Below are positions 8,267 through 60,510 of a DNA stretch of 64,000 bases, piece after piece (within the stretch, counting starts at the first letter, position 1; each line of letters begins with the position of its first letter). Under the pieces are notes generated by a model. It had not been told where the DNA came from. It did not search any database and saw only the letters and a program-made list of their open reading frames with translations. The position numbers were made by a program, and so were the translations under genes. The stretch covers positions 2,604,001 through 2,668,000 of the forward strand of contig NZ_CP015093.1 of NCBI RefSeq assembly GCF_001975705.1, written 5' to 3'. The DNA is from Salipiger abyssi. Its GTDB lineage: Bacteria; Pseudomonadota; Alphaproteobacteria; Rhodobacterales; Rhodobacteraceae.

Positions 8267-9352
8267 TCAGCCCTCGCGTTTCTCGAAGTCGATGCGCGGA
8301 TCGACCAGCACATACATCAGGTCGGAGATGATCCCCACCACCAGCCCGATCAGGCCAAAGATGAAGAGCGTGCCGAAGACCACCGGATAATCCCGCGCCA
8401 CCGCCGCCTCGAAGCCGAGCCGGCCCAGCCCGTCGAGCGAAAAGATCGTCTCGATGATCAGCGAGCCGGAGAAGAACACGCCGATGAACACCGCCGGAAA
8501 GCCCGCGATGACGATCAGCATGGCGTTGCGGAAGACATGCCCATAAAGCACCCGCCGCTCGGTCAGCCCCTTGGCGCGGGCGGTCATGACGTAGTGCTTC
8601 TTGATCTCGTCGAGAAAGCTGTTCTTGGTCAGCAGCGTCAGCGTGGCAAAGGCCGAGATCGTCGAGGCCAGCACCGGCAGGGTGATATGCCAGAAGTAAT
8701 CGCCGATCTTTGCCGGCCAGCTCAGCGTCTCCCAGTTGTCCGAGGTCAGCCCCCGCAGCGGAAAGATCTGCCAGTAGGAACCGCCGGCAAAGAGCACCAG
8801 CAGCAGGATGGCAAAGAGGAAGCCGGGGATCGCATAGGCCACGATGATCGCGCCGCTCGTCCAGGTGTCGAAGGCCGAGCCGTCCTTTACCGCCTTGCGG
8901 ATGCCCAGCGGGATCGAGACGATATAGGCGATCACCGTCGACCAGAGACCCAGCGTGATCGACACCGGCATTTTCTCCAGCACCAGATCGGTGACCGAGA
9001 TCGAGCGGAAATAGCTCTCGCCGAAATCCAGCCGCATGTAGTTCCACATCATATTCAGGAAGCGCTCCAGCGGCGGCTTGTCGAGCCCGAACTGCCGTTC
9101 GAGATCCTCGATGAACTCCTTGGGCAGCCCGCGTGCGCCGACATAATCGCTGTCGGAGCCGAAGGTCTGCTCGCCGGTGTCGTTGCTGCCGCCGGAAAAC
9201 CCGGAGAACACGTCGCCATCGCCCTGCATCTGGGCCAGAACCTGCTCGACTGGGCCGCCGGGCACGAACTGGACGAGGGCGAAATTGATGATCATGATCC
9301 CCAGCAGCGTGGGGATGATGAGCAGCAGTCGTCTTAGGATATAGGCGCCCAA
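8267..9352 (-). CDS. yejB: Peptide ABC transporter permease (YejB-like)
   Basis: 361 residues. The DppB/YejB start [20 protein letters not shown] is followed by an insertion of about 70 residues between the first two helices, then the permease core with EAA loop [20 protein letters not shown]. It pairs with YejE to form the channel. It begins 4 bp after the binding-protein gene and stops 1 bp before the yejE start, so the four genes form one operon read leftwards. Confidence 0.92.
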
Positions 9353-9356
9353 CGGG

Positions 9357-11291
9357 TTACCTCAGCACGCCAGCGGCTTTGAGAGCCTCGTGTTTTTCCT
9401 GATTGAGCCACCAGAAATCCAGATAGCCCACCGCATAGGGAGGCAGCGTCTCGGGGTGCTCGTACATGTCATACGACGCGATCCAGGTCTCGGCGACATA
9501 GCCCGCGGGTACGATCACCCGGTGCCAGCGCAGCGCCCGGTCGAGCGCGCGCAGGGCGACGATCTCGTCCTCGCGGGTCTCGGTCATGAGCGCCGCCTCA
9601 ATGATCGCATCGACCATCGGGCTTTGCAGTGAGGCGGGGTTGTAAGAGGACACCACCGCCGCGTCGGAGCCGAACATCTGCTTCAGCCCGGTGCCCGCCG
9701 CCAGGAAGGTGTTGTAGCGGAAGAAGACAATGTCGAAGTCTTTGTCATAGTACCGCTGCGCGTATTGCGCAGAATCGACCTTGTCGATCTCGATGGTGAC
9801 GCCGAAGGTCGTGAGTGTGCCGACATAGGTGGTGGCCATCGCCTCCACCGTGTCCGAGGTGCCCGAGGACAGCATCAGCTTCAGTGTCAGCGGCTCGCCC
9901 TCGGCATTGCGCAGCTTGCCGTCGTCGCCGACCTCCCAGCCGGCGGAGGCCAGAAGGCGCAGCGCCCGGCGCATATTGCGGCGGTCTGCCGGTGTGTCCG
10001 GATCCGAGGTATGGGCCATGACGGCCTCTTCCTCGAAGATCTCGGGCGGGATCACGTCGCCGAGCGATTCCAGAAACGCCTTTTCGGCGCCTTCCGGGAC
10101 GCCCTTGGCCTCGATCTCAGTGCCCTCGACAAAGGAATTGCGCTGGGTGGTCAGGCCGTATTGCAGCGACTCGCGGGTCCACTCGAAGTTGAAGGCCAGT
10201 GCCAGCGCCTCGCGCACGGTCTTGTCGTCCATCGGCGCGCGCAGCGTGTTGAAGACAAAGCCGGTATTGGTGGGCGGCGCGCCGTCGGGCAGGGATTCGC
10301 GCTTGATCGTGCCGTTCTCGACCGCCGGGAAATCGTAGCCGGTGGCCCAGCGTTTGGTGCTGCCTTCGGGGCGGAAGGTGTAGATGCCTGCCTTGAACGC
10401 CTCGAACTCGGCGGCGTCGTCGGCGAAATACTCGATCCGGACGCGATCGAAATTGTGCCGGCCCTTGTTGATCGGCAGATGCCAGCCCCAGTAGTCGGGG
10501 TTACGCTCATAAACCACGTAACGGTTGATCTCGTAATCGCCCACCAGCCACGGACCGGTGGCCATCGGCGACAGCAGGCTCGGCTCGTCGAGCCTCTCGC
10601 CGGTCTCTTCGTACCAGGCTTGCGAGAACACCGGTGTGCCGCCGACTTGGCTGATCAGCGAGCGGCGCGAGATGCCGTCGACAAAACTGTACTTGATGGT
10701 CAGATCGTCGATCACTTCGACGCCGGCGACGCGTTCCTTGACGCCGCGCGCATAGCTGCGGATGCCCTGTTCGAGAAACAGGTTGTGGGTGAAAAGCGCG
10801 TCCTGCGCGGTCACCTTCTCGCCATTGGAAAAGCGCGCCTCGGGGCGGATGTGAAACACGCACCATTCCTGCGACGCGGGGTATTCCACGCTTTCGGCCA
10901 GCAGGCAGTAGGCATCGGTGATCGAATCCGCCGGCAGCCCGCCCTCGAAGGGCATGTCGCCGAACATGGCCTCGGCGACGACGTTGGAATTGCCTTCGGC
11001 GCGGCCCTTGCTGGCCCAGCGGTTGAAACCGTCGAAAGTGCCGCGTGCGCTGAGCGAGATTTCCCCACCCTTCGGCGCATCGGGATTCACATAGTCGAAA
11101 TGGGTAAAATCGGCGGCATATTTCAGATCGTTGTAGAAGGAGTAGCCGTGGCTGCGGATCATCTCCTGCGCGACATCGGTGGCGGCCCAGCCGGTGCGCG
11201 GCAGACCTCCGAAACCGGTCGCCATCGCGCCGCCCCCGATCAGGCCCATGGCCTGGCGTCTGGTGAGAAGGCTTGCCGGGTCTTTGGTCAT
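9357..11291 (-). CDS. yejA: Extracellular solute-binding protein, family 5 (YejA-like)
   Basis: 644 residues. The N-terminus has a twin-arginine (Tat) signal, [20 protein letters not shown], with probable cleavage after GWA. The mature part is a family-5 peptide-binding protein: [25 protein letters not shown] and the terminal [13 protein letters not shown] segment are typical of the YejA group. It captures oligopeptides in the periplasm for YejB/YejE. As the first gene of the operon, its upstream region 11292-11507 should hold the operon promoter; no clear operator was seen. Confidence 0.92.
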
Positions 11292-27400: not shown

Positions 27401-29359
<1,959 letters not shown>

Positions 29360-29363
<4 letters not shown>

Positions 29364-30448
29364 GCCCCACCCTCCAGTTGCAGCAGCAGGCCGGGGCGGA
29401 TCACCCCGCCCACCGCCGGCGCGGCGCGGCCCTGTCCCAGCCGCGCGGTCAGCGCGTCATAGCGCCCGCCCGTGGCGATGGGCGGCAGATCCGGGCGCTG
29501 CGGCGCCAGGAAACCGAAGACGAAGCCGTCGTAATATTCCATCGAGGTGCGCCCGTAGCTCGCCTCGAATTCCAGCGCCTCCACGTCGATGCCGCGCGCC
29601 GCCAGCGCGTCGCAGCGCCGCGCGAAGCGCTCGACCGCCGGCAGCAGCCCGGGCAGGTCGACAGCGATGTCGTGCAGATGCTCCAGCGCATAGGGGCAGG
29701 TCTCGCGCACCGCCAGCAGCGTGTCGATCAGCTGCACCTGGCTGTCGCAGAGCGGCCCCTCGGCGGCATCGGCGCGCAGCGCTTCGATGCGCGCGGCGAT
29801 CTCCGCCTCCGAGCGCATGCCGATCATCGGCCCGGCCCCGGCCATGGCATCCTGCGCCTCCAAGAGCGCCTTGCGCGCGGGTGGCGGCGGGGTGCGGCCG
29901 GAATAGCGGTCGAGCAGGGCGCGGAACCGGCGCGGGCGCCAGATATGCCGCATCAGCGCGTCCCGGCGCCGCTCGGATGTCTTCAACCCCGCCACGGCGG
30001 CGGTGAGAATCCCGATATCGCCAGTCACCGCGCGCAGCCCAAAGGGCGCCAGCGTCTCGGCAAAGAGCGCGAACACCTCGGCATCCGCCTGCGCCGGCGC
30101 CTCATCCGCAAAGAGCTCGTACCCCACCTGGAAATATTCCGAGGCGCGCTCGGGGTGCTCTTCCTGCCGCCGGAACACCTCTCCGCAATAGGTGTAGCGC
30201 GAGGGCGCGGCGCCGCTCTGCATATGCATCTGTACCACCGGCACGGTGAAATCCGGGCGCAGCATCACCTCGCCGCGCGCCGGATCCTGGGTGACATAGG
30301 CGCGGGCGCGGATATCCTCGCCATAGAGATCGAGCAGGGTCTCGGCGGGTTGCAGGATGGCGCAATCCACGTTTTTGGCGCCGGCCTCGACAAAGCGGGC
30401 ACGCAGCCGCACCGCCTCGGCGCGTTCCTCTGCGATGCTCACGCCCAT
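29360..30448 (-). CDS. hisZ: ATP phosphoribosyltransferase regulatory subunit
   Basis: About 362 residues, a catalytically inactive histidyl-tRNA synthetase paralogue that activates short HisG. The class II synthetase core is seen ([43 protein letters not shown]), lacking the anticodon-binding domain. ATG at 30448 lies inside the hisS 3' end; GTG at 30442 overlaps the hisS stop as GTGA and is an equally possible start. hisS-hisZ-hisG form one tight operon read leftwards. Confidence 0.92.
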
Positions 30449-47493: not shown

Positions 47494-47925
47494 TTAGAGA
47501 ACGCCGATCTCGGCCAGCGCCCCGGCGAGCTCCGGCGGCAGCTCGTCCTCGCTCTGGCGGTTTTCCGGCAGGTCGGGCGGCGCGTCGGCGGGGGCGAGGT
47601 AACGCCAGCCCTGGAACGGACGGCGCGGCGCGGCGGCGACACGGATCAGCCCCGGCGCCAGCACGATGGCGCAGCGCGCGGTGCCGTCGCTGCCGGTCAC
47701 CCGGTCGAGCCGCAGGATCGGCTGGCGGCATTGCACCATGCCCTGGATCACCCAGTAGATGCTGCCGCCGGCGAGGATCTCGGCCTCGCGCCGGGGAAAC
47801 ATCCGCGTGACATGGCGCGGCAGCCCGTCCTCGTATCGCCCCGCCTGGGCGGCCTGCCAGGCGGCGAGGGACTCGACGCTTTCCGTGCCGACGCTGAGTT
47901 TTATCAGATGTGTGATCTTATCCAC
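47494..47925 (-). CDS. DUF1489 family protein
   Basis: 143 residues. HLIKLSVGTESVESLAAWQ at the N-terminus and the central PRHVTRMFPRREAEILAGGSIYWVIQGMVQCRQPIL are the DUF1489 pattern, conserved across Alphaproteobacteria without known function. Length is normal for the family. The gene is divergent from nrdJ with a 115-bp gap. Confidence 0.85.
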   Translation of the reverse strand: MDKITHLIKLSVGTESVESLAAWQAAQAGRYEDGLPRHVTRMFPRREAEILAGGSIYWVIQGMVQCRQPILRLDRVTGSDGTARCAIVLAPGLIRVAAAPRRPFQGWRYLAPADAPPDLPENRQSEDELPPELAGALAEIGVL

Positions 47926-48040
47926 AGAGTCGCCCCCAAGCTGTCATGATATTGTAGTCCCGCGCGGGGCAGCTTCAAGGCGTTGTGCAGGGCTCGCCCT
48001 TTGCGCTACCTTTGGTGCTCTGCCGGATAAGGGAATCGCC

Positions 48041-50326
48041 ATGAGCCGTTTCGCCGCCCCCATCGCCGAACAGATCTGGGACATGAAGTACCGCTTCAAG
48101 CAGGCGGATGGCGCGCCCATCGACGGCACGGTCGAGGACAGCTGGCGCCGCATCGCCCGCGCTCTGGCCTCGGCGGAGAAACGGCCCCAGGACTGGGAAG
48201 AGACCTTCTTTGCCGCGCTGGAGGATTTCAAATACCTCCCCGCCGGGCGGATCACCGCCGGCGCCGGCACCGCGCGCTCGGTGACGCTGTTCAACTGCTT
48301 TGTCATGGGCACGATCCCCGACAGCATGGCCGGCATCTTCGACATGCTGAAAGAAGCCGCGCTGACCATGCAGCAGGGCGGCGGCATCGGCTATGATTTC
48401 TCCACCATCCGGCCCAAGGGAGCCACGGTGCACGGGGTGGCGGCGGATGCCTCCGGCCCGCTGTCCTTCATGGATGTCTGGGACGCCATGTGCCGCACCA
48501 TCATGTCCGCCGGCTCGCGCCGGGGTGCGATGATGGCCACCATGCGCTGCGATCACCCGGATATCGAGGATTTCATCGGTGCCAAGGCCGACAGCGCGCG
48601 GCTGCGCATGTTCAACCTTTCGGTGCTGGTGAGCGACGCCTTCATGGAGGCGGTGAAGGCCGGCGGCTCCTGGGATCTGGCATTCGACGGCAAGGTCTAT
48701 CGCACCGTCGAGGCGCGCGACCTGTGGAACCGCATCATGCGCGCGACCTACGATTACGCCGAGCCGGGGGTGATCTTTATCGACCGGATCAACCAGGCCA
48801 ACAACCTCAACTATATCGAGGAGATCGCGGCCACCAACCCCTGCGGCGAGCAGCCGCTGCCGCCCTATGGCGCCTGCCTGCTGGGGTCGATCAACCTCGC
48901 CCGCCTGGTGAGCGCGCCCTTCGAGCCCGGCGCCCATATCGACGAGGAGGCGCTGGACGGGCTGGTCGCCACCGCCGTGCGGATGATGGACAATGTGGTC
49001 GACGCCTCGCGCTTCCCGCTGCCCGCGCAGCAGGAGGAGGCCCGGAACAAACGCCGTATCGGGCTGGGGGTGACGGGGCTCGCCGATGCGCTGCTGATGA
49101 AGGGGCTGCGCTATGGCTCGGAGGAGGCCGCCGCGCAAACCGAACGCTGGCTGCACCGCATCGCCCGCGCGGCCTATCTGGCCTCGGTCGAGCTTGCCAA
49201 GGAGAAAGGCGCCTTCCCGCTCTTCGATGCGGAGAAATACCTCGCCTCGGGCAATATGATGCAGATGGACGAGGATGTACGCGCCGCAATCCGCACGCAC
49301 GGCATCCGCAACGCGCTGCTGACCTCTATCGCGCCCACCGGCACGATCTCGCTCTATGCCGGCAACGTGTCGAGCGGCATCGAGCCGGTCTTTGCCTATG
49401 CCTATACCCGCAAGGTGCTGCAAAAGGACGGCACGCGCACCGAGGAAGAGGTGGTGGATTACGCGGTGCAGATGTGGCGCGACCTGAAGGGCGACGCGGA
49501 CCTGCCGGAGCATTTCGTCAATGCCCAGACGCTCGATCCGCAGGATCATGTGCGCATGCAGGCGGCGGCGCAGAAATGGATCGACAGCTCGATCTCCAAG
49601 ACGATCAACTGCCCGGAGGACATCTCCTTCGAGGCATTCAAGGACGTCTACATGATGGCCTACGAGACCGGCTGCAAGGGCTGCACCACCTATCGGCCCA
49701 ACGAGGTGACCGGCTCGGTGCTGACGGTGAGCGAGACCGCCGACGTGGCCCCCGGTGAGGCCCCGGAACAGGTCCGGGGCACGCAGGAGGGCGCCGAGGT
49801 GGTCTATATGTCCGAACCGCTGGACCGGCCGCAGGCGCTTGAGGGGCAGACCTACAAGCTGAAATGGCCCGACAGCGAGCATGCGATCTATCTGACGATC
49901 AACGATATCGTGGTCGGCGGACACCGGCGGCCCTTCGAGGTGTTCATCAACTCCAAGAACATGGAGCATTACGCCTGGACGGTGGCACTCACCCGGATGA
50001 TCTCGGCGGTGTTCCGGCGCGGCGGCGATGTGAGCTTTGTGGTCGAGGAACTGAAGGCGGTGTTCGACCCGCGCGGCGGCGCCTGGGTGAAGGGCAAGTA
50101 CATCCCGTCGATCCTGGCCGCCATCGGCGGCGTGATCGAGCGGCACATGATCGCCATCGGCTTTCTGGAAGGCGAGGGGATGGGGCTGAAATCCGACCCT
50201 CAGGCAAAGGTCGTGGGCCTCGACGCCCCGCGCGGCAAGGCCTGTCCGTCCTGCGGCCAGTACAGCATGATGATGGTCGAAGGCTGCATGACCTGCTCGA
50301 ACTGCGGTCATTCGAAGTGTGGGTGA
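48041..50326 (+). CDS. nrdJ: B12-dependent (class II) ribonucleotide reductase
   Basis: 761 residues. It reduces ribonucleotides to deoxyribonucleotides using adenosylcobalamin. The finger-loop/active-site segment NPCGEQPLPPYGACLLGSINL, GVTGLADALLMKGL and TTYRPNE are typical, and the C-terminal Cys-rich tail (CPSCGQYSMMMVEGCMTCSNCGH) is the redox/zinc-like end of class II enzymes. Between SETADVAPG and EVVYMSEPLDRP lies an insertion encoding EAPEQVRGTQ from a perfect palindrome at 49760-49780. NrdR at 24057 is a likely regulator. No cobalamin riboswitch is seen in the 115-bp leader. Confidence 0.95.
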   Translation: MSRFAAPIAEQIWDMKYRFKQADGAPIDGTVEDSWRRIARALASAEKRPQDWEETFFAALEDFKYLPAGRITAGAGTARSVTLFNCFVMGTIPDSMAGIFDMLKEAALTMQQGGGIGYDFSTIRPKGATVHGVAADASGPLSFMDVWDAMCRTIMSAGSRRGAMMATMRCDHPDIEDFIGAKADSARLRMFNLSVLVSDAFMEAVKAGGSWDLAFDGKVYRTVEARDLWNRIMRATYDYAEPGVIFIDRINQANNLNYIEEIAATNPCGEQPLPPYGACLLGSINLARLVSAPFEPGAHIDEEALDGLVATAVRMMDNVVDASRFPLPAQQEEARNKRRIGLGVTGLADALLMKGLRYGSEEAAAQTERWLHRIARAAYLASVELAKEKGAFPLFDAEKYLASGNMMQMDEDVRAAIRTHGIRNALLTSIAPTGTISLYAGNVSSGIEPVFAYAYTRKVLQKDGTRTEEEVVDYAVQMWRDLKGDADLPEHFVNAQTLDPQDHVRMQAAAQKWIDSSISKTINCPEDISFEAFKDVYMMAYETGCKGCTTYRPNEVTGSVLTVSETADVAPGEAPEQVRGTQEGAEVVYMSEPLDRPQALEGQTYKLKWPDSEHAIYLTINDIVVGGHRRPFEVFINSKNMEHYAWTVALTRMISAVFRRGGDVSFVVEELKAVFDPRGGAWVKGKYIPSILAAIGGVIERHMIAIGFLEGEGMGLKSDPQAKVVGLDAPRGKACPSCGQYSMMMVEGCMTCSNCGHSKCG
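49760..49780. repeat. In-frame palindromic element inside nrdJ
   Basis: Perfect arms GCCCCGGA and TCCGGGGC around a 5-base loop ACAGG. It encodes part of EAPEQVRG, nearly the same peptide as the dnaE copy (EALDQVRG), in the same orientation relative to its gene. Confidence 0.87.
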
Positions 50327-50407
50327 GCGGCGAGCTGCCATATAGTTGTGGCTGAAAGCAATTCTTGGCCACTTTCGGTAGGAAATTGGCCACTTTGAAA
50401 GCACAAA

Positions 50408-50437
50408 ATGCCCACCGGCGTGAAAGCCGGTGGGCAT
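50408..50437 (+). terminator. Terminator after nrdJ
   Basis: A 12-bp perfect stem ATGCCCACCGGC / GCCGGTGGGCAT with loop GTGAAA, followed by TCGTGTATTTTG. It lies about 80 bp past the nrdJ stop. Confidence 0.85.
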
Positions 50438-50728
50438 TCGTGTATTTTGCCATTGTGGAATGGCTTCATGCCTCACTGACCATTGCGCGGCTTTCGCGCA
50501 TCGAGAAGGACTAAGAACTCTCTGCGAACGCTTTGTGAATGGCTAACCCATGGAACGGTTTGGGTCATTGGCGATAGTAGGGATCAACAGAAGCGTAGAA
50601 TGAACACGATGTGCCGCAGAAGAAGGTGCTTGCCGTGGTTCTTCTGCTGATATGATCGAGTTTCGCGTCCGATCAGGCGTAGGAGTCTTGGGCCAAGCAG
50701 TTTCGGAGGTGGCAACCTGAAGGCAATG
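50438..50728. other. Non-coding junction between core genome and the IS
   Basis: About 290 bp of lower GC content with no credible gene. It contains a 9-bp inverted repeat (GCAGAAGAA at 50616-50624, TTCTTCTGC at 50639-50647) of unknown role. The left end of the insertion sequence starts at 50729. Confidence 0.55.
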
Positions 50729-50757
50729 TGACCTGCTCCCCATAGAGTCCGCGTTTT

Positions 50758-51576
50758 TTAGTTCGCTCTGTTCAGGGTTTGGTCCTCTACTGACCGTTGG
50801 TGATACTCCCACGGTGTGAGCCCGTCGAGGCTCGTGTGGGGGCGATGGTGGTTGTAGTCTTCGCGCCAGGCCGAGATAAGCTCCCGGGCGTGGCGCAGGT
50901 TGGCGAACAGGTGCTCGTTCAGGCACTCGTCGCGCAGGCGGCCATTAAAGCTCTCGACGAAGCCGTTCTGCATGGGCTTTCCTGGCGCGATGTAATGCCA
51001 CTCGACCTTGCGGTCCTCCTGCCATTTCAGGATGGCATTCGATGTCAGCTCCGTTCCGTTGTCACTGACCACCATACATGGATAGCCGCGCACCCGGGCG
51101 ATGCTGTCGAGCTCACGGCCGACACGTTGCCCCGACAGCGAAGTGTCCACGACCGTCGCCAGGCATTCCCGGCTGAAGTCGTCGATGACGCACAGCACCC
51201 GGAACCGGCGCCCGTCTGAGAGGCTGTCCGAGACGAAGTCCAGGGACCATCGCTGGTTCGGCCCTTGTGGGATCGCCATCGGGGCCCTCGTTCCGATCGC
51301 GCGCTTGCGACCGCCGCGCTTGCGCACTGTCAGGCCCTCTTCCCGGTAGATCCGGTAAAGCTTCTTCCAGTTCACCTTCCAGCCTTCGCGACCAAGAAGC
51401 AGGTGCAGCCTTCGATAGCCGAAGCGACGCCGTTCGCTGGAAATCGCCTTCAGCCTCTCCCGCAGCTCGGCGTCTACAGGTCTAATTGATCCACGTCGAT
51501 ACACACGCGGGTCGATCCCGGCCAGGGCACAGGCCCGCCGCTGGTTGTAGTTCTTCTCTGTCATGGCCCAGTCCAC
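50758..51576 (-). CDS. IS3-family transposase OrfB (DDE catalytic part)
   Basis: 272 residues as read from a GTG at 51576, but normally produced as an OrfAB fusion by -1 frameshifting. HTH_21 and rve integrase domains are visible: [29 protein letters not shown], then catalytic acids in [15 protein letters not shown] and [14 protein letters not shown], the D-D-35-E set. It ends with the usual [18 protein letters not shown]. All three acids are present, so the element may be active. Confidence 0.92.
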
Positions 51577-51599
51577 GGCTCGTCGCCTTGCACCGGGCT

Positions 51600-51866
51600 T
51601 CAGAAGTTTTTTCCCAGCATCTCCTTGAGCGTGGCCACATCCAGCATCTGCTCCGCGAGCATCTTCTTGAGCTTCGCATTCTCAGCCTCCAGCGCCTTCA
51701 GCCGTTTGGCCTCCGACACCTCCATGCCGCCATACTTCGAGCGCCACTTGTAGAACGTGCCGTCACTGATGCCATGCTTCCGGCACAGCTCCTTGGCACC
51801 TATCCCGGCCTGGTGCTCCTTTAAAATGCCAATGATCTGCTCTTCGCTGAAACGGCTTTTCCGCAT
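51600..51866 (-). CDS. IS3-family transposase OrfA (HTH_8, leucine-zipper)
   Basis: 88 residues: HTH domain [42 protein letters not shown] followed by a leucine-zipper-like helix ([23 protein letters not shown]). It binds the IS ends and inhibits or assists transposition. Close to its 3' end (51606-51615) the coding strand reads GGGAAAAAAC shortly before the TGA, the slippery sequence for -1 frameshifting; the -1 frame runs open as [19 protein letters not shown] into OrfB. Confidence 0.92.
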
Positions 51867-52300
51867 TGTCTGTCTCCTCGTTTGGAGAACAGGCTAACTT
51901 CAAAACGCGGACTTTTCAGGGGAGCAGGTCACACCCAACGCGTTATCACGCGCCCCGTACGAGCTACCGAAAATTCTTGCCCTGATTTCTGAAATCGATC
52001 CGTCATTGACTTCCGACTATCGTTATCTGCGCTTGATCGATTTGCTGGAGCGGTGTTAACGGCGACCTGGTCTTTCGTTTGAAAGTTCAACTCGCATCAA
52101 ATGGCACGCAATTTGGCGCCTGGCATTGTACTTCCTCCCGCTAAATCGCGGCTTACTGCCAAGCCGCGAACGACCGCTCTCCGCCCATGTCGTTGCTACC
52201 TTGGCCCTTGAAACGCGTATGATCGCTATCTTCGGCCTGGCTTGTCCAATTGGCGCTGCCGCTTTCCGGCACCTATTTAGCCACCTGTTCGCTTGCCTGC
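51867..52300. other. Right end of the IS and spacer up to the helicase gene
   Basis: 434 bp. 51867-51931 is the promoter and right end of the IS; 51934-52059 is a short coding remnant (listed separately); 52060-52300 appears non-coding. A 91-codon open frame on the minus strand (52056-52331) overlaps the helicase 3' end and is arginine-rich without family features, so I do not call it. Confidence 0.5.
51934..52059 (+). pseudogene. C-terminal gene remnant cut by the IS
   Basis: From the IS border the frame is open to a TAA at 52057-52059 and encodes about 41 residues (begins PNALSRAPYELPKILALI, ends RYLRLIDLLERC). It has no start codon and a natural protein-like composition, so it may be the tail of a gene destroyed by the insertion or by a flanking deletion. 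The 5' part was not found on the other side of the IS. The family is unknown and chance is possible. Confidence 0.35.
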
Positions 52301-55234
52301 TTAACGACCTAACTTCGACTTTCCTGCGCAATCAGGGAAACGTACGCAGCCCAGGAAAGCCCCGTATCTTCCCCTCCGTTCCACGAGCCAGCCGTCGGTG
52401 CATTCCGGGCAAGGTGCTTGGACGGCTCCGCACTCTCCGCAATTCTTCTCGCCTTTCGGTTCCTTGCGAACCGGAAGCCCGGTGCCGCAAGCGGGACAGG
52501 CGGGCATGCGATTGCCGCAGTGCTTGATGTGCTCGCAACGGTACCAGCCTGGGCCATCAACGCCGGGCATGAACAGCAGGCGGCCACCACATTGCCCGCA
52601 TGTATGGGTGCGCTCCTGGGCCTCGCTTGGGCTGGCTACGTCATAGATGGGATCTTTCAGCAGTTCCGTGACGAAGGCTGAAGGGCGCGCTTCGGACGCC
52701 AGGATCGTGACCGTTCGGCGTGCCCGGGTCATGGCGACATACATCACGCGGCGCTCTTCAGCGTTGGCGAAGGGTTCCGCTTCGGGCGAGACAAGGGCGA
52801 GAAGAGGGTCGTCGACGATCATCGATGGAAAGCCCATGCGTGCGCTATCGGCGCCGAGCAGGACAACGTGGTCGGCCTCCAGGCCCTTTGAGGCATGGAT
52901 AGTCTTGAAGGTGATCGTCAGGTTCGGATGCCGTCGACGAAGGCTGCGCATGTCGGGCTCGATAAAGCGGTAGCGGCCCAGCAAGAGCACCGTTGCCTTG
53001 CGACCAAGAGGAGCAGGCTCTGCCGCCAGAGCTTTCAGGCTGTCGTCCAGCACCTGGTCGCCGGTCTCGCGCCGAGTCCAGGCAATCCGGATTACGGGAT
53101 GCTCTGCCTCGCCGGCAGGAACAACCATCTTGGTGATCTGCGCCGGGTTGCACAGCACGAAGCGCCGGGCAGCCAGGGCGATCTTGTCGACCGACCGGAA
53201 CGTCCGTCCGAGGTCGACCGTGCGGTGGACACCGGTGTGGCCAGCGAAGACGCCGCCGAACTCGCGACCGAAGTTGCGCATGATGTGGATGTCGGAGCCG
53301 GCAAAACGGTAGATGGACTGCCAATCGTCGCCGACGGCAAATATCCTCGTCTCCGCATGCTGGTTTTTGAGCGCCTGGATTAGCCGCGCCCGGCCGGTCG
53401 AGATGTCCTGGAATTCGTCGACAAGGATATGGCGGAACGGGCTCACGTAACGCCCGCTTTCCACCAGCGCGGTCGCGCGGTTCACCATGTCCTCGAAATC
53501 GATGCGCTCGCCCAGCCTGTCCTGATATTCGCGGTATACCGCCCCGAAGATCTTGAGAAAGGCATCGCCGCGTTTGCCCATCTTCAGGGTCGCGGCCTTC
53601 GTCTCGCAATCGCCCAGGTGATAGCCGCCGTTCTTGAAGTGCCGCAGGAAGGTCGCGATCAGTGACGTGAAGCCGTCGACGACACCAAGGGATGTCACGC
53701 TGTCGTAGATCTCGAGGGCAGGGCGCGGGCGGAGCGTGACATGCGGCGCGACCTTCTCTGCCAGCGCTTCGAGCAACCGGCCTTCCTCGTTCTCCCAGCT
53801 ATAGGTCTCGATCAGGGTCGTGCCGTGTTCAGCATGGACCTGGCGTTTCCAGGCCATGCCCTCTAGGTAGGCGTCGCGATCGATGAAGGGGGCGGTGGTC
53901 AGCTCCTCCGTACCGTCCGGCTGTGTTGCCTTGCGGACGCCGAAATGCTCGAGATAGACCCCGCTCTCGGTGAGCCGGAAGTCCGGTGTGTAGGCGCGCC
54001 TGCCGGTCCCGGTCAGCTCGTGCTCGTAGGTCGGCTCGTACTTGTAGGCGATGCCATTCAGGTACAGCCAGTTGGCGATCGTCAGCTCCTCGAAGCTGGC
54101 GACGGTGTCGCCCTTCAGGCTTCGCAGGTTCCGGCTTTCAACCTCGGAATACCACTTGTGGGCGGAGTCGTAGTCCCATGCATTGGGGATATCGTCGAAG
54201 AAGCCGGCGAACCAACCCACCACGGTTCCGGCGATGTCGGCCATCCGGCTCACGATGTTCCGCAGGATGTCCTTGATCAACTGGAGGAAGGCCTTGTCGT
54301 CGGTCGCCGTCGGTGCGAGGGGCGGTTTTTCGCCCTCGACCGTACCGATGATCTCGTAGGCCAGGGCGTGGAAGGTGCGCGCCATGATCGGCACGCCGCA
54401 CCGCGCCTCGATGCGATCGGACATTTCGGTGGCGGCATCCTTGGCGAAGGCCAGGAGCAGAAGCTCATGCGGCTGCCGGATACCGGCCTTCACCAGATAG
54501 GCAGCCTTGGCGGTGATGACCGAAGTCTTGCCCGAGCCGGCACCGGCGAGGACGAGCGTTGCATCTTCGTCGACCACGACGGCCAGCCGCTGCTCCGGCG
54601 TCAGCGGCATGGACTCGACGGTTTCGAAGAACTCTTTCCAGTCCGCCAGCTGCTGGTCGGTAAAGGCTGCGATTGCCGCATCGCGGAGTTGCTCTGGATT
54701 GCGGGCGAACTCCATGATCGGAGACAGGCGCGCCATCGTCTCCTCGCCCAGGGCTGCTGGGTTGAGCTTCTTCAGGACGTGGGCGTCGAGGTCGGCGGCA
54801 TGGCTGGCGACTGGGTCTACAAGGCAGGCGGCGGGATATCTCGTCGGTGCCTTCAATCCCTCGATTGCCGTCATCAGGGCCGCAATCGCGTCGTCTTCCT
54901 TGGAAAGCTGGGCAAGATTGTAGCCTGACCAGGCTGTTTCGACAGCTTGTGCGAAGGCTCTGGCGGGTGCCTCCTGGACCCCGGGCAGCAGGACGCAGGA
55001 CTGGTTTCCGAGATCCAGGGTGAGGCGGGCGGAGACACGGCCACGCTGTACCACGGGACTTGCCGCGATCTCCGAGAGGTGGATCCAGGCATGAGCGCCG
55101 CCGGACGCCGCAATGGTGTCGTCCTGGAGTGCCAGCTCTCGCGGGTGCTTGCGGAAGGGGTCAGACAGGAAGGCGGGCAGTGGGCGCGATACAAGTTTCA
55201 TCGAAATCCAGAGGTCGAGTTCCATCTCCGACAT
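52301..55234 (-). CDS. UvrD/HelD-like superfamily 1 helicase with embedded nuclease-like domain and C-terminal zinc ribbons
   Basis: About 977 residues. Walker A LAGAGSGKTS lies near residue 230, motif II LVDEFQDIS near 606, then VGDDWQSIYRFAGSD and the motif VI region VMYVAMTRARRTVTIL. Between motifs Ia and II there is an insertion near residues 380-435 (FEELTIANWLYLNG, YTPDFRL, YLEHFGV) resembling a PD-(D/E)XK endonuclease fold, although YLEHF is not a classic EXK. The last 100 residues hold Cys-rich ribbons (CGQCGG, CPACG, CGECG, CPEC) like topoisomerase C4 fingers. ATG at 55234 has GGGGAG upstream. A DNA-repair or defence role is inferred. Confidence 0.82.
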   Translation of the reverse strand: MSEMELDLWISMKLVSRPLPAFLSDPFRKHPRELALQDDTIAASGGAHAWIHLSEIAASPVVQRGRVSARLTLDLGNQSCVLLPGVQEAPARAFAQAVETAWSGYNLAQLSKEDDAIAALMTAIEGLKAPTRYPAACLVDPVASHAADLDAHVLKKLNPAALGEETMARLSPIMEFARNPEQLRDAAIAAFTDQQLADWKEFFETVESMPLTPEQRLAVVVDEDATLVLAGAGSGKTSVITAKAAYLVKAGIRQPHELLLLAFAKDAATEMSDRIEARCGVPIMARTFHALAYEIIGTVEGEKPPLAPTATDDKAFLQLIKDILRNIVSRMADIAGTVVGWFAGFFDDIPNAWDYDSAHKWYSEVESRNLRSLKGDTVASFEELTIANWLYLNGIAYKYEPTYEHELTGTGRRAYTPDFRLTESGVYLEHFGVRKATQPDGTEELTTAPFIDRDAYLEGMAWKRQVHAEHGTTLIETYSWENEEGRLLEALAEKVAPHVTLRPRPALEIYDSVTSLGVVDGFTSLIATFLRHFKNGGYHLGDCETKAATLKMGKRGDAFLKIFGAVYREYQDRLGERIDFEDMVNRATALVESGRYVSPFRHILVDEFQDISTGRARLIQALKNQHAETRIFAVGDDWQSIYRFAGSDIHIMRNFGREFGGVFAGHTGVHRTVDLGRTFRSVDKIALAARRFVLCNPAQITKMVVPAGEAEHPVIRIAWTRRETGDQVLDDSLKALAAEPAPLGRKATVLLLGRYRFIEPDMRSLRRRHPNLTITFKTIHASKGLEADHVVLLGADSARMGFPSMIVDDPLLALVSPEAEPFANAEERRVMYVAMTRARRTVTILASEARPSAFVTELLKDPIYDVASPSEAQERTHTCGQCGGRLLFMPGVDGPGWYRCEHIKHCGNRMPACPACGTGLPVRKEPKGEKNCGECGAVQAPCPECTDGWLVERRGRYGAFLGCVRFPDCAGKSKLGR

Positions 55235-55775
55235 ACCAGACGCTCCCCAGGTGGGAAGCCTTCGCGTCCAGGTGGCATTGACTGGTTCCGAGTACTTGTC
55301 GCGTGGAATGCGGTACGTCACGTCGGCGACATACCTTTGTTCTCAAGCGTGCAGTGTCCGGATGCGGTGGTAGCGCGCTACAGGGCGCGGGCCCCAAGGT
55401 CCCGGCCACCTTTCTCTATGAGGCTGGATGTCGAGGTTTGCGATTTGGCTGGTTTGTCCCCGCCAAGGGAGCAAACTCGCCGATCTCCAAACCGTCGAAA
55501 CAGCGAATCCCATCGACACGCCCCTAGCCGCCGAGGCCTGGGCAGCGGTGCAGAAGCGGCGACCGGTACCCGCAGTGCAGCTCTGAGGCGATCTGGTGGG
55601 AACCTCGTTGCCTCAGGGGATGATCACTCCAAGACGCGTGGCAACTTTCTTCTCGTGATGTCCTGCTCATCACCTTGCGAGAACATGTCCGCCTTCGTCG
55701 CGCTGGCCCCGGGAGCGTGACGCCGATGGCCCTTGAAGTGGTCATCTGAAGAAAATTCAGAGAATATTTTTTCGC

Positions 55776-56076: not shown

Positions 56077-56817
56077 ATGTCGAATTACGAAGACTGGTTG
56101 CAGGACCAACCGGCACCCAAGAAGAAACAGCCAGCCTTGGTGGTGGCACCGATCCACGGGGTGCTTCCCTATGCTGGTGCTCTCAATCCGCTGACCCGCA
56201 GCGACACGGCCAAGCGGGTGTCGGTTGCGATCGCAACGCCGATGACGGGCGGCATCCGGCAGGTCTACCACTATGATGGCGAGTCCGAATACGCCGTCAC
56301 CTTGGATGCCCTTCGCAGCCCCGAACTCTATGGGCTGGAAGTGCAGCTTGCGCCTGTTTACTACTATTGCCGTCGCCAGAGGGGAGTGTACCCCCATCAT
56401 TTCGATTTGCGGCTCACCTTCAAGGATGGGTACCGGCGCGCGGTTTTCGTGCGCAACGCGACGAGCTTGGCGAAGCGCGAAACCCAGGACGAAATCGACG
56501 ACATCTTCGCCGCGGTCACCGAGGACTTTGCTGACGACTGCATGGTCGTCTGCACCGATGACTACACGCGCGCCTATCGCGACAACCTTCGCCGTATCTG
56601 GGACTATCTGCAGGTGTCGGACGATGACGCGGATGATCTCGTCGAGGATGCCGCACGCAATACCAGCTATTGGTATCTGAGCGACCTGATCGCGAATTGC
56701 GACATGGAGCCGTGGCGCTGCTACCAGGCGGCGATGCGGCTCATCGGCCAGAATGTGCTCTGGGCGGACATGCACGGCGTCATTGACTATCCCTCGCGGG
56801 TCGCGCTGAACGCATGA
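56077..56817 (+). CDS. TnsA-like (TniC-like) transposition protein
   Basis: 246 residues. The order ESEYAVTLDALRSPELYGLEVQLAPVYYY, YPHHFDLRLTFKDG and RRAVFVRNA follows the TnsA endonuclease layout (first Glu, a PDF-like strand, an EVK-like strand). However, the position of PDF reads HHFD (residues 107-110) and the position of the catalytic Lys reads FVR (124-126), so the nuclease site looks altered. TnsA normally cuts the 5' ends of the element. ATG at 56077 has GGAG 6 bp upstream. Its stop overlaps the next gene by 4 bp. The identification rests on pattern and neighbours. Confidence 0.7.
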   Translation: MSNYEDWLQDQPAPKKKQPALVVAPIHGVLPYAGALNPLTRSDTAKRVSVAIATPMTGGIRQVYHYDGESEYAVTLDALRSPELYGLEVQLAPVYYYCRRQRGVYPHHFDLRLTFKDGYRRAVFVRNATSLAKRETQDEIDDIFAAVTEDFADDCMVVCTDDYTRAYRDNLRRIWDYLQVSDDDADDLVEDAARNTSYWYLSDLIANCDMEPWRCYQAAMRLIGQNVLWADMHGVIDYPSRVALNA

Positions 56818-59057
56818 CTTCGCAGCCGCTCTACAACATCCCCAAAGGATCCATCCTGAAGCTGGATGGTCGCGAACTGATGGTGTCGGTTCGCGAGGAG
56901 AGCGGCTATGCGGTGGAGTGCAAGGAAACCGGCGAGTGTTTCACGCTGCCGCTTGAGCGGGTTGAGACTGCAATCCGACACCGGGATTGCGAGGTGATCA
57001 AGCCGGCCGACGTCGAAAGGCGGAAGGCCCTGCTCAAGCATACCGACGGCCTCGAGTGCGTTGAGCAGCTTTCGGAAAAAGACCAGCGGATTGTCCAGGC
57101 GCGCCTCGCCCTTGTTATCGCTCAGAACGAGCTGCGCGCCGAGGGCGTGAAGCTCACCCAGCGCAGCATGAACAAGAGCGGTACACATCGCCGTCTGCTT
57201 CTGACCCGCGCGGAACAGATCGCGCCTGGGCACAATTTTCTCGGGACACGCCGCGGCGGGAAGCTCGCAAGCGGCTTTGATGTTCCGCAAGGGCGGACCC
57301 TGACCAACTACCGCGACGTCTACCATCGCTTCGATCAGAACCCAGTTGTCTTGGCGGATCGTGATCGCATGAAGGGGCGCCGGGAGCCAAGGCTCTGCAA
57401 ATGGCAAGAGCGGTTCATCGACTACGTCCTCAACCGTTGGCATGATCCTAAGCAGCCAAAATTGGCATCAGTTTACAAGCTGGCGACAAAAGTCTTCCAC
57501 CGCTCTCCCCAAGAGATGGCGCAAGACATCAACTTTCCCTCGATCACGACGATCCGCACGCGTGCGAAGGCGATTTCTGGTGTCGTGACCGTGATCGGCC
57601 GCGGAGGAGCGCGGCACGGGACCAACACCAAGGGAGCTGGTTCTACCGATGTGCGCGCCCTGGGATTCGGTGAGAAGTTCGAAACAGATCAATATCTATT
57701 GTCGATTTTCACCTCCGGCGATGGTGTCGTACGTGCTGAGATTATCGATCCCAAGGAAGCTCCGCAGGAGCTTGCGGACAATGAGATCCGACGCTGCTGG
57801 CTCCATGTGATCCTTGATATCGCGACCCGCGAGGTGCTGGGTTGGGTCATGTCTGAAACGGCCGATGCCGATCACAGCAAGGCTCTGCTGCGCATGGCGA
57901 CCCGGGACAAGACCAAGGAGAAGGTGCGATACGGCTGCAAACAGGATCCCGTGCCGCCCGTCCGCTTGGGGCTTGCGCTAGCGGACAATGGCACGGCCAC
58001 CCGGAATGCAGACGTGTATGCGGGGCAGCTCGGAATGGGCATGGCCGTGATGACGGCGCGCGCGCACCAGCCCATGGATAAGCAGACGGTCGAGCGGCTT
58101 TTCGGCACGACGCAATGGGACGTGCTGAACTTCCGGCCAGGGTACACCGGTAGCCGTCCTGGCGAACTGACCGGCTACGAGCCCAAGCCCTCGGCCGAAA
58201 TCAGTCATGACGACCTCTATGGCACCCTCACGCGATATTTTATCGATGAGTATCCCTTCCGGCCGCATCGCGGCACCGGGATGTACGGTGCGACCCCTCG
58301 TCAGAAGCAGGAAGAGGCCCTTCAGCTTTACGGCCCGATGGAACCGCCGTCGCAGCGCGACCGGTGTCTGCATTTGGGAGCAAAGGTTCAGGCAACCACG
58401 ACGTCAGAAGGGGTCAGGGCGTTCAATATCCCGTTCAACTCTACGGAACTCCAACGCTTCGCAGCGGGGCGCCCGAAGCGGGTCACCGTTCACCTCGATC
58501 CCGACGACCTGCGGAAGGTCCATGTCACTGCCGAGGGGGAAGACGCCGTGATTGAAGCCCGCCTTAGCATGACCGTCTTCAAGGACCAGACGCTCGAAGA
58601 AGCCATCGAGATCATGGGGACTGCGACGAAGTCCAATCCGATCTTGCGGGAACTCCATGATCGACACCTGAGCGAAGCGATGAAGCGCCGTGCGCTTGAA
58701 TCCGGCTTCTTCCCGGATTCCCGCGATCCGTCGAGCTACCAGACGCTCGCACAGCTCGAGGCTCGCGCGAGCAAACTGCTTCAGGTCGAAACGCGACCCG
58801 CCGCCTACATCGGCGCGACTGCTGCACCCGGGCATCTCATGAGCAGGGGCCGCACGTCGGGTGTGGTGCCGGCACGCCCAGCCGGTACGGCTCCGTTTAA
58901 ACCGCCATCCGCTTCGACGCCTCCCAGGGCGAGTACATCGTCGCCGCGGTTCGCTGGACAGGCGGATGGGCCCCCAGAGACGGGGGCAACTTCGGCGCCA
59001 GACCCTGACGACATCAAGGCCATGACCTTCGGCCCCATCAAGGATAGCAAACTGTGA
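56814..59057 (+). CDS. TniA/TnsB-like DDE transposase
   Basis: 747 residues, the length of TnsB. An N-terminal DNA-binding region is followed by a retroviral-integrase-type core with catalytic acids D292 (FETDQYLL), D391 (ALADNGTA) and E427 (KQTVERLFG); exactly 35 residues separate the last two, giving DDX35E. A Mu-type C-terminal beta-barrel (VTVHLDPDDLRKVHVT) and a Pro/Ser/Thr-rich tail follow; in TnsB such tails contact TnsC. It joins the 3' ends of the element to target DNA. Overlaps both neighbours by 4 bp. Confidence 0.9.
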   Translation: MTSQPLYNIPKGSILKLDGRELMVSVREESGYAVECKETGECFTLPLERVETAIRHRDCEVIKPADVERRKALLKHTDGLECVEQLSEKDQRIVQARLALVIAQNELRAEGVKLTQRSMNKSGTHRRLLLTRAEQIAPGHNFLGTRRGGKLASGFDVPQGRTLTNYRDVYHRFDQNPVVLADRDRMKGRREPRLCKWQERFIDYVLNRWHDPKQPKLASVYKLATKVFHRSPQEMAQDINFPSITTIRTRAKAISGVVTVIGRGGARHGTNTKGAGSTDVRALGFGEKFETDQYLLSIFTSGDGVVRAEIIDPKEAPQELADNEIRRCWLHVILDIATREVLGWVMSETADADHSKALLRMATRDKTKEKVRYGCKQDPVPPVRLGLALADNGTATRNADVYAGQLGMGMAVMTARAHQPMDKQTVERLFGTTQWDVLNFRPGYTGSRPGELTGYEPKPSAEISHDDLYGTLTRYFIDEYPFRPHRGTGMYGATPRQKQEEALQLYGPMEPPSQRDRCLHLGAKVQATTTSEGVRAFNIPFNSTELQRFAAGRPKRVTVHLDPDDLRKVHVTAEGEDAVIEARLSMTVFKDQTLEEAIEIMGTATKSNPILRELHDRHLSEAMKRRALESGFFPDSRDPSSYQTLAQLEARASKLLQVETRPAAYIGATAAPGHLMSRGRTSGVVPARPAGTAPFKPPSASTPPRASTSSPRFAGQADGPPETGATSAPDPDDIKAMTFGPIKDSKL

Positions 59058-60043
59058 CCAACCCCTTCATCATTCCCTCGTTGGCAAACCTGAATGCGGA
59101 CCTGGCGCAGCGTCATTTCCCGCTCGCCAGGGGCGAGGAACTTCAGCAGACCTTCGCGCAGCTCTTCAGTCGCCACTTGGGGCGTCTGCGGTCCGGGAAG
59201 GGCTTCGAGGCACGTAGCCTCCTTGTGACGGGGCTGTCTGGTTCTGGCAAGACCGCCGAGATCTCGGACATGCTGAACCGCTTCAACGGGACCGCCGTTC
59301 TCTTGCCAGACGGCAAGGACGCGCGGTTTGCAAGCTGCGTGCTTGAGGCGAAAGGGTCCTGGAAGGACCTTGGCCGCAAGACGCTTCACGCCTTGGGCTA
59401 TCCGATTACGAACAAGACGCGCCGGACCCAGTTTGAGATCTGGGATCTGGTCATCAAGCAGGCCAAGCTCCAGGGCGTCATCGGGATCTACTACGACGAG
59501 GCGCAGCATATCATGCGCGGAAAGTCGGATGCCGAGGTTCTGAGCGTCCTGGATGCGTTCAAGACGCTCATGAAGTCACACGACTGGCCGCTCATGTTGA
59601 TCCTTTCGGGTGTTCCGGAACTGGGAGACTACGTGCAGCGCGAGCCACAGCTCGATCGGCTGATGACTAGGATCGAGTTCCAGGAAATCGATCTGAGCAG
59701 TGCGCCCGGGCATCCAGCGCAGGACTACGAAACCCTCAATGAAATCGTCGGGAGCTACGCCATCAGCGCGGGGCTCGATGTCGATGCGCGTCTACCGACG
59801 GGAGATTTCCTGCACCGCCTTGCGACTGCCGGCGCATTCCGGTGGGGATTGGTCATCGACATGGTCGTCGATGCTGTAGCGCTTGCCGTTGCCAGGAGGG
59901 AAGGGGTGGTTGAGCGGTCGGATTTCGTGGCGGCCTGGTGCGAGAAAACCGGAATGAACCAGCTGGCGACACTATTCACCCATGAAAGCTACGAGAGGAT
60001 GTTCCGGAGGGACAAGCCGTTCCGGGCCGCCATCGGCACCTGA
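59054..60043 (+). CDS. TniB/TnsC-like AAA ATPase
   Basis: 329 residues, the size of TniB and shorter than Tn7 TnsC. Walker A GLSGSGKT at 60-67, Walker B GIYYDEAQH near 144-152, then sensor segments (LILSGVPELGDYVQREPQLDRLMTRIEF). It selects target DNA and activates the transposase by forming filaments on DNA. GTG at 59054 overlaps the tniA stop. No TniQ/TnsD or resolvase gene follows; a terminator stands 30 bp after the stop codon, so the operon ends here. Confidence 0.9.
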   Translation: MTNPFIIPSLANLNADLAQRHFPLARGEELQQTFAQLFSRHLGRLRSGKGFEARSLLVTGLSGSGKTAEISDMLNRFNGTAVLLPDGKDARFASCVLEAKGSWKDLGRKTLHALGYPITNKTRRTQFEIWDLVIKQAKLQGVIGIYYDEAQHIMRGKSDAEVLSVLDAFKTLMKSHDWPLMLILSGVPELGDYVQREPQLDRLMTRIEFQEIDLSSAPGHPAQDYETLNEIVGSYAISAGLDVDARLPTGDFLHRLATAGAFRWGLVIDMVVDAVALAVARREGVVERSDFVAAWCEKTGMNQLATLFTHESYERMFRRDKPFRAAIGT

Positions 60044-60072
60044 TCTTCCAGGACAATTCAGTCTTTGAGAAA

Positions 60073-60096
60073 CCCGCGCTTCGGCGCGGGTTTTTT
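60073..60096 (+). terminator. Terminator of the tnsA-tniA-tniB operon
   Basis: Stem CCCGCGC / GCGCGGG with a TTCG tetraloop, followed by six T residues. Confidence 0.92.
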
Positions 60097-60360
60097 CATG
60101 CCTAGACGCTGCAGCCCGTATGCCCACATGAGCTAAGGCCCTGATACTGCGCATGTTTTTGGTTTGCGCGCATGCTTATGCTTTCAATCAGGAAGCCGCG
60201 TCCGGCAAGTTGTTGAAAACCTTTATGAATTCCTGACGCCGAATCGGAAGTGATTGATTTTGCGCACTCATCTGCTTTCTCTGACTCATATTTGTGGTGT
60301 GGCGTGCCGCGCGACATGACCTAACCGTCTCACAAGGTCATTTTGAATGAGAAGATAAAG

Positions 60361-60391
60361 AAACGGCCTCGGGGAGTACCCGAGGCCGTTT
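60361..60391 (-). terminator. Perfect 13-bp hairpin, probable terminator
   Basis: AAACGGCCTCGGG pairs with CCCGAGGCCGTTT around GAGTA. Read leftwards it is followed by CTTTATCTT; read rightwards only by TGCATG. It may stop transcription entering the island from the right. Confidence 0.65.
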
Positions 60392-60510
60392 GCATGTCTG
60401 GCTGTGGCGACGCCTAGGGGTTTTTGCGGGGGGCAGCACGTTAAGGAGAACAGCCGACCTCCGTGCATGACGCAGAATCGCACTCAAGGTCGTCACGAAG
60501 GGCGGAAAAG

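Follow-up and report, generated by a model that had tools for sequence, protein, structure and literature searches.

The DNA considered here is a stretch of 64,000 nucleotides (nt) from the genome of Salipiger abyssi (contig NZ_CP015093.1, positions 2,604,001 to 2,668,000), referred to below as 'the window'. It contains a compact operon of three genes, tnsA, tnsB and tnsC, of the kind that moves Tn7-like transposons. The original prediction, made from the letters alone, described this operon as a Tn7-like module without the target selector TniQ (or TnsD), and offered three explanations: the selector has been lost, lies elsewhere, or has been replaced by another targeting route. Comparison with related genomes indicates that the unit is very probably the right-hand part of a decayed Tn7-like transposon, one of a family whose homing site is the nrdJ 3' end, and that this copy has most likely lost its left end together with its tniQ gene. 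Other genomes, contigs and loci are designated below by our own G, C and L numbers.

The tnsABC operon

The operon consists of the following features, all on the forward strand:

56077–56817, + strand: tnsA (match of the predicted structure)
56814–59057, + strand: tnsB, a DDE transposase (family matches, PDB sequence matches and DDE residues)
59054–60043, + strand: tnsC, a TniB-sized AAA+ ATPase (family matches and Walker motifs)
60070–60096, + strand: terminator-like hairpin and T run 3' of tnsC (sequence)

The three are real genes that overlap by 4 bp each, as predicted, and the DDE residues of TnsB (D292, D391 and E427) and the terminator were found where the prediction had placed them. TnsC, at 329 amino acids (aa), is TniB-like; AAA_22 and TniB both score over the cut-off, the Walker motifs are present, and the protein thus supplies the AAA+ regulator (TnsC/TniB) by which Tn7-like transposons are recognized. 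By sequence, window TnsA matches no family significantly. When its predicted structure (mean predicted local distance difference test score, pLDDT, 89.2) was searched with Foldseek and VIA, Tn7 TnsA alone matched strongly, which bears out the claim that the first gene is TnsA-like; the TM-scores are modest (0.40–0.53 by query), and the other matches on the VIA list lie mostly over the winged-helix C-terminal part. TnsA and TnsB together make up the heteromeric transposase of Tn7-like transposons.

Homologues of this TnsA number 91 (among 451 candidates), and the organisms named in the list are presumably Rhodobacterales. In named genomes, 51 loci were found, nearly all Rhodobacterales by title, the two other labels being Martelella and Marinicella. 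A cluster tally of these 51, which leaves the window copy outside, has TnsB at 47 and TnsC at 37, several loci stopping at a contig end. The window proteins are close to those of some relatives: TnsA is 95% identical to its counterparts in G403 and G405 and 86% to that in G407, and TnsB is 95% identical to that of G403. The reading frames of tnsA, tnsB and tnsC are still open in the window copy.

The right end and the insertion site

Beyond the operon lie one transposon end and one side of the target site, the other side of which adjoins nrdJ:

47759–50326, + strand: nrdJ, vitamin B12-dependent ribonucleotide reductase, whose 3' end is the attachment site (ORF; a homologue borders the left end elsewhere)
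50338–50342, no strand: left copy of the target-site duplication CATAT (sequence comparison)
60148–60286, − strand: right end, with terminal AGTCAGAG at 60279–60286 and three 18-mers resembling TnsB sites (minus-strand starts 60278, 60184 and 60165; homology stop and motif search)
60287–60291, no strand: right copy of CATAT (sequence comparison)
60361–60391, + strand: 13-bp inverted repeat that probably served as the nrdJ terminator before the two were separated (in L082, an empty-site genome, a similar hairpin comes directly after nrdJ)

DNA similarity to relatives breaks off exactly at 60286 in six loci (L018–L023), and at 60289 in L046. Inward from this boundary come AGTCAGAG and then a AAANCANAAGNNTGCGCA-type 18-mer, which recurs twice farther in. 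The terminal pattern occurs once in the window (0 in 100 shuffles) and once in the whole genome. CATAT stands immediately outside the right end and is repeated at 50338–50342, ending 17 nt past the nrdJ stop codon; the copy thus has the 5-bp duplication at a fixed site that is typical of Tn7-like transposons.

We named the ORF at 47759–50326 nrdJ from a reading of its sequence; in L136, L137 and G427, nrdJ was confirmed by tblastn (79–87% identity). The original prediction had proposed a search of related genomes for empty sites, and these exist. Twelve congeners were examined, out of 20 genomes of the genus (its own included), and the nrdJ site is empty in three of them (G411, G406 and G397). 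Two have a left end of the nrdJ-site family there, and seven have the end of a second family, X, discussed below (that of G394 is divergent). In G411, the end of nrdJ runs straight into the sequence found at 60295–60401 in the window.

The spot is fixed. The insertion lies 17 nt after the nrdJ stop codon in the window, and a left end of the family lies 16–20 nt after it in seven other genomes. At least three genera are represented (by the grouping used, that of the window and those of G258 and G042). The distance is 16 nt in G405 and G396, and also in G407 and G403 when read through an insertion of X; it is 19 nt in G258 and G042, and 20 nt in G427 (locus L024, from an uncultured Rhodobacteraceae bacterium). 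Such constancy implies sequence-specific target selection. An exact nrdJ–left-end pattern, which is strict and misses diverged cases, matched two of 394 genomes of the taxonomic family (G258 and G042), and its reversed control none. Literature searches outside subscription papers and supplements, with term searches within PMC10293859 and PMC8649781, gave no mention of nrdJ as a Tn7-type site among the matches listed, nor any account of this nrdJ-site family.

Where the selector is found

No TniQ or TnsD was found in the window, as the original prediction stated; the TniQ/TnsD selector expected in a Tn7-like element is absent from this copy and present in its relatives. Of 19 related genomes, 12 have a gene for a long TniQ on the contig of tnsA, upstream and on the opposite strand, the nearest being 0.6–24 kb away. 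PF06527 scores over the cut-off in all 12, and also in the long TniQs of two relatives. These proteins measure about 590–650 aa, and their TnsD-like length suggests direct recognition of DNA.

Relatives in which both ends are seen share one plan: left end, tniQ (reverse), cargo, tnsA–tnsB–tnsC, right end. Measured between their ends, the elements span 39.6 kb (G403), 26.3 kb (G405), 19.3 kb (G407), 20.4 kb (G427) and 38.7 kb (G428). Counted inward from the left end, tniQ starts at 0.1–0.2 kb in G427 and G428, and at 5–11 kb in G403, G405 and G407; in complete relatives it can lie as far as 33 kb from tnsABC, with cargo between. Because tniQ may be this distant from tnsA, and on the other strand, claims of TniQ-less systems need to be judged on the whole element, and comparison with relatives removes the one that had been made here. 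Among the three original explanations, loss of the selector is favored for this copy, and a different targeting route is disfavored, as the relatives keep TniQ within the element.

The mechanism of the Tn7-like family is ordinary. By homology, TnsB would bind to the repeated sites in the two ends, and TnsA and TnsB together would excise the element. TnsC would connect TnsA and TnsB to a TniQ/TnsD-type protein that recognizes the end of nrdJ, and this protein would direct insertion 16–20 bp past the stop codon, with a 5-bp duplication. From the position of insertion, and from the 93–97% identity among the TniQs of the nrdJ-site elements in G403, G405 and G407, we infer that the TniQ of this family binds the 3' end of nrdJ.

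A selector might also be supplied in trans by another element of the same genome. A second Tn7-like element does occur there, at 2.02–2.03 Mb of C5 (L111 and L112), with a TnsA-like protein of 176 aa, TnsB, TnsC (389 aa) and a TniQ of 546 aa; a copy of an IS3-family element lies nearby. Identity of this TniQ to that of the nrdJ type is about 27%; TnsB (about 23–25%) and TnsC (30%) are likewise remote from those of the window or the family, and at this distance cross-talk is improbable. The left end of the window copy is missing in any case, and we regard help in trans as extremely unlikely. The genome further contains, on the 156-kb contig C4, five sets of TniB and TniQ (L002–L006 and L009–L013; TniQ frame 287 aa). 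Four of the five have identical scores, suggesting the recent spread of one element on C4.

A different small protein, of about 190 aa, is encoded upstream of tnsA (e.g. L034, 8937–9527) at 16 of the 51 loci, and is the next sizeable ORF in 12 of the 16. In the one member scanned, an IS1595-type zinc ribbon is the only Pfam match over the cut-off. We considered it as a substitute selector and dropped the idea because four regions that have it (G413, G418, G419 and G426) also have a long TniQ; it is possibly an accessory factor.

The probably lost left side

Between the left copy of CATAT and tnsA, the window contains the following:

50343–50345, + strand: AGT, probably the final three nt of the element's left end (the left ends of relatives start AGTCAGAG or AGCCAGAG)
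50346–50728, + strand: probable remnant left end of family X, TGT... with repeated TTGGCCACTTT (alignment to X ends after nrdJ elsewhere)
50729–51931, − strand: IS3-family element of 1203 bp, with no duplication on either side (sequence and copy comparison)
52301–55321, − strand: cargo, a helicase IV/UvrD-like protein of 1006 aa with a Top1-type zinc ribbon (family matches)

The element's own left-end motif, present in G403, G405, G407, G427 and G428, was not found in the window, nor elsewhere in the genome at up to 3 mismatches. Tn7-like transposons have two ends with repeated TnsB sites; the window copy has the right one and lacks the left. Since an X-like end and a duplication-less IS3-family element occupy their place, the left end and tniQ have most likely been lost by deletion, as judged from the sequence. 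Later insertions, together with an IS-associated deletion, would have removed them. Although tnsABC is open, the unit as a whole can probably no longer move. At least eight identical full-length copies of the IS3-family element occur in the genome, that of the window included.

The cargo is shared with relatives: DNA identity of about 93.5% extends over 52160–56100 in L031 and over 52163–55898 in L091, and in G403 the helicase lies between tniQ and tnsABC. When homology was seen to stop at 55636, a short 4.65-kb element composed of tnsABC only was considered; it was rejected because the flanks just beyond 55636 are themselves conserved within subgroups, and because the duplication and the empty site put the left boundary at 50343.

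That the frames stay open despite the lost left end could mean that the trio is retained for a role in the host or in defence, and is a transposon no longer. We think this very unlikely. Little time since decay would suffice to explain open frames. PADLOC yields only TnsB, generic UvrD helicases and two weak TnsC matches (E 0.009 and 0.075), and the distribution has the look of a mobile element: it is patchy (even with distant matches counted, the A1 profile is matched in 51 of the 394 genomes) and involves several sites. The GajB matches of the helicase cargo in PADLOC look generic for UvrD helicases.

Several observations weigh against the decayed-transposon interpretation. Seven of the 19 related genomes have no TniQ on the tnsA contig; in four of these a contig end lies within about 8 kb, and the other three (G414, G417 and G430) have about 24–41 kb upstream of tnsA without one, so that TniQ-less copies may not be rare. 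Two of seven other checked copies of the IS3-family element also lack the 4-bp duplication that is present at the remaining five, which weakens the case for an IS-associated deletion. The identification of 50346–50728 with X comes from one short alignment; the segment is divergent, with no blastn match to another genome among the fetched loci, and could instead be the element's own left end, diverged, in which event tniQ alone would have been lost. On contig C2 of G403, nrdJ is near one end and the element near the other, and placing the element after nrdJ assumes that C2 is circular, which the matching duplication AGTCA supports. Finally, clean target duplications flank four of the seven elements with both ends seen (CATAT in the window, GTCAG in G403, GAAGC in G427 and TGTTC in G428); G405, G407 and the apparently inverted L117 have no clean one. 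L117, a Tritonibacter plasmid, has inverted copies of one ORF (9019–9651 and 29064–29696) that flank the tnsABC right end, with tniQ and the left end outside, which suggests that its element was split by an inversion.

The three long TniQ-less contigs are also what a functional, TniQ-independent tnsABC unit would predict, one that is targeted by another route such as TnsC alone or the ends of resident elements. The conservation of its open genes agrees with this, as do several loci at which one element ends 1–6 nt from the end of another. Yet the nearest relatives have tniQ inside the same pair of ends, insertion is at one spot after nrdJ across genera, and the window copy has no left end; a unit of this kind is very unlikely.

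Active site of TnsA

In Tn7 TnsA, the residues of interest are E63, D114, Q130 and K132. Across 92 TnsA sequences of the present family, E71 and D110 are each kept in 91. At position 124, which aligns with Q130, 66 sequences have F and 26 have Y; at position 126, which aligns with K132, R occurs in 74 and K in 18. Nine diverged family members have R throughout. The five comparators have K at the K132 position in every case, and Q, E or A at the Q130 position. To judge by these alignments, TnsA of the nrdJ-site family would have an unusual active site, and possibly altered cutting. A firmer claim, of a degenerate nuclease, was dropped because 18 of 92 have K at position 126 and because the Q130 position varies in the comparators too. 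To our knowledge, the TnsA substitutions, the nrdJ site and the sharing of that site by two families are new features.

Exchange of selectors and proposed stacking at nrdJ

TniQ can differ strongly between elements with near-identical tnsABC. The TniQ of G398 is of the nrdJ type (93–96% identity), no left end being seen on its contig. The element of G428 (C2; loci L120–L122) is close to those of G403 and G407 in TnsC (96–98%; that of G403 is a 300-aa frame), TnsB (82–86%) and TnsA (86–91%). Its left-end TniQ is only about 30–31% identical to the nrdJ type, and the element lies 13 nt after tRNA-Arg(CCU), flanked by TGTTC. G428 carries, in addition, a second TniQ that is 91–92% identical to the nrdJ type. 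Conversely, the TniQ of G427 is only 41–42% identical to that type, yet its element is at nrdJ. A Tn7-like branch whose members have exchanged TniQ partners is described in PMC11406308, and so the principle is already known. The nrdJ gene becomes a candidate attachment site for a family with near-identical tnsABC and exchanged selectors; the shift from nrdJ in G403 and G407 to tRNA-Arg in G428 amounts to a natural experiment in target setting by TniQ; and the system is a possible tool for safe-site integration in Rhodobacterales.

X itself looks like a second Tn7-like family. Its far junction was read in G403 and G407; genes resembling those for TnsB, TnsC and TniQ adjoin the far end in G403, and a TniQ-like gene does so in G407. 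The X TniQ is 26–28% identical to the TniQ of the resident nrdJ-site elements. X sits in the first nucleotides of the resident left end, 4 nt in with the duplication GAGTC in G407, and 5 nt in with AGTCA in G403. Since X lies no farther in than the duplication is long, the resident terminus is restored. The left junction in the window is alike (AGT, 3 nt), its opposite side having been deleted. We propose, with somewhat less than even confidence, that two Tn7-like families home to the 3' end of nrdJ and stack there. X would land 4–5 nt inside the resident left terminus, the 5-bp duplication would regenerate the resident end, and two unrelated elements would coexist at one safe site; the window copy, with its 3-nt offset, would be a decayed stack, and the resident TnsA, in which the Q130 position is aromatic and the K132 position mostly R, might cleave in another manner or no longer cleave.

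Comparison with known systems

The family shares with Tn7 (TnsABCD, glmS) the TnsA fold, a DDE TnsB, an AAA+ TnsC and a TniQ-family selector (here in the relatives), as well as repeated TnsB-type sites at the ends, a 5-bp duplication and insertion just after a conserved gene. It differs in several respects. The gene is nrdJ rather than glmS; TnsC is 329 aa in the window and 555 aa in Tn7; TnsA has F/Y and R/K where that of Tn7 has Q and K; the tniQ of relatives lies outside the tnsABC operon, on the other strand and near the other end; and the window copy lacks both tniQ and the left end.

With the Tn402/Tn5053 group (TniA–TniB–TniQ–TniR), the family has in common the TniB-sized ATPase and the TniQ family. 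That group has the resolvase TniR and no TnsA; the window encodes a TnsA-fold protein, and no resolvase was found among the neighbors scanned with Pfam (the helicase and the IS3 ORFs). TniB of R751 has no significant similarity to window TnsC. Nor is the likeness to tniC–tniA–tniB of Acinetobacter, which the original prediction had drawn, more than weak. The order (TnsA-like, TniA, TniB) is that of Tn6022-type elements, but TnsB is 24.5% identical over 43% of the query, and TnsA and TnsC are not significantly similar. In Tn6022, a short TniQ works with TnsF, and TnsE is used as well (PMC10293859). The Tn6022 site is comM; here the TniQ of relatives is long and the sites are nrdJ and tRNA-Arg (TnsF was not searched for). 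Assignment to the Tn402-like or Acinetobacter-like elements was rejected for this weak similarity. A TnsB tree that placed the family between Tn7 and Tn402 was not used, its Tn7 and cyanobacterial branches being very long. The suggestion that the module is intermediate between those two groups does not hold up, since TnsA also accompanies a TniB-type ATPase of about 330 aa at the cyanobacterial pMIC7113.04 locus (L119). There, annotated TnsA, transposase, TniB (329 aa) and TniQ follow in a row, with tniQ directly after tniB, unlike the present family, and the TnsC proteins of the two are 27% identical over 170 residues.

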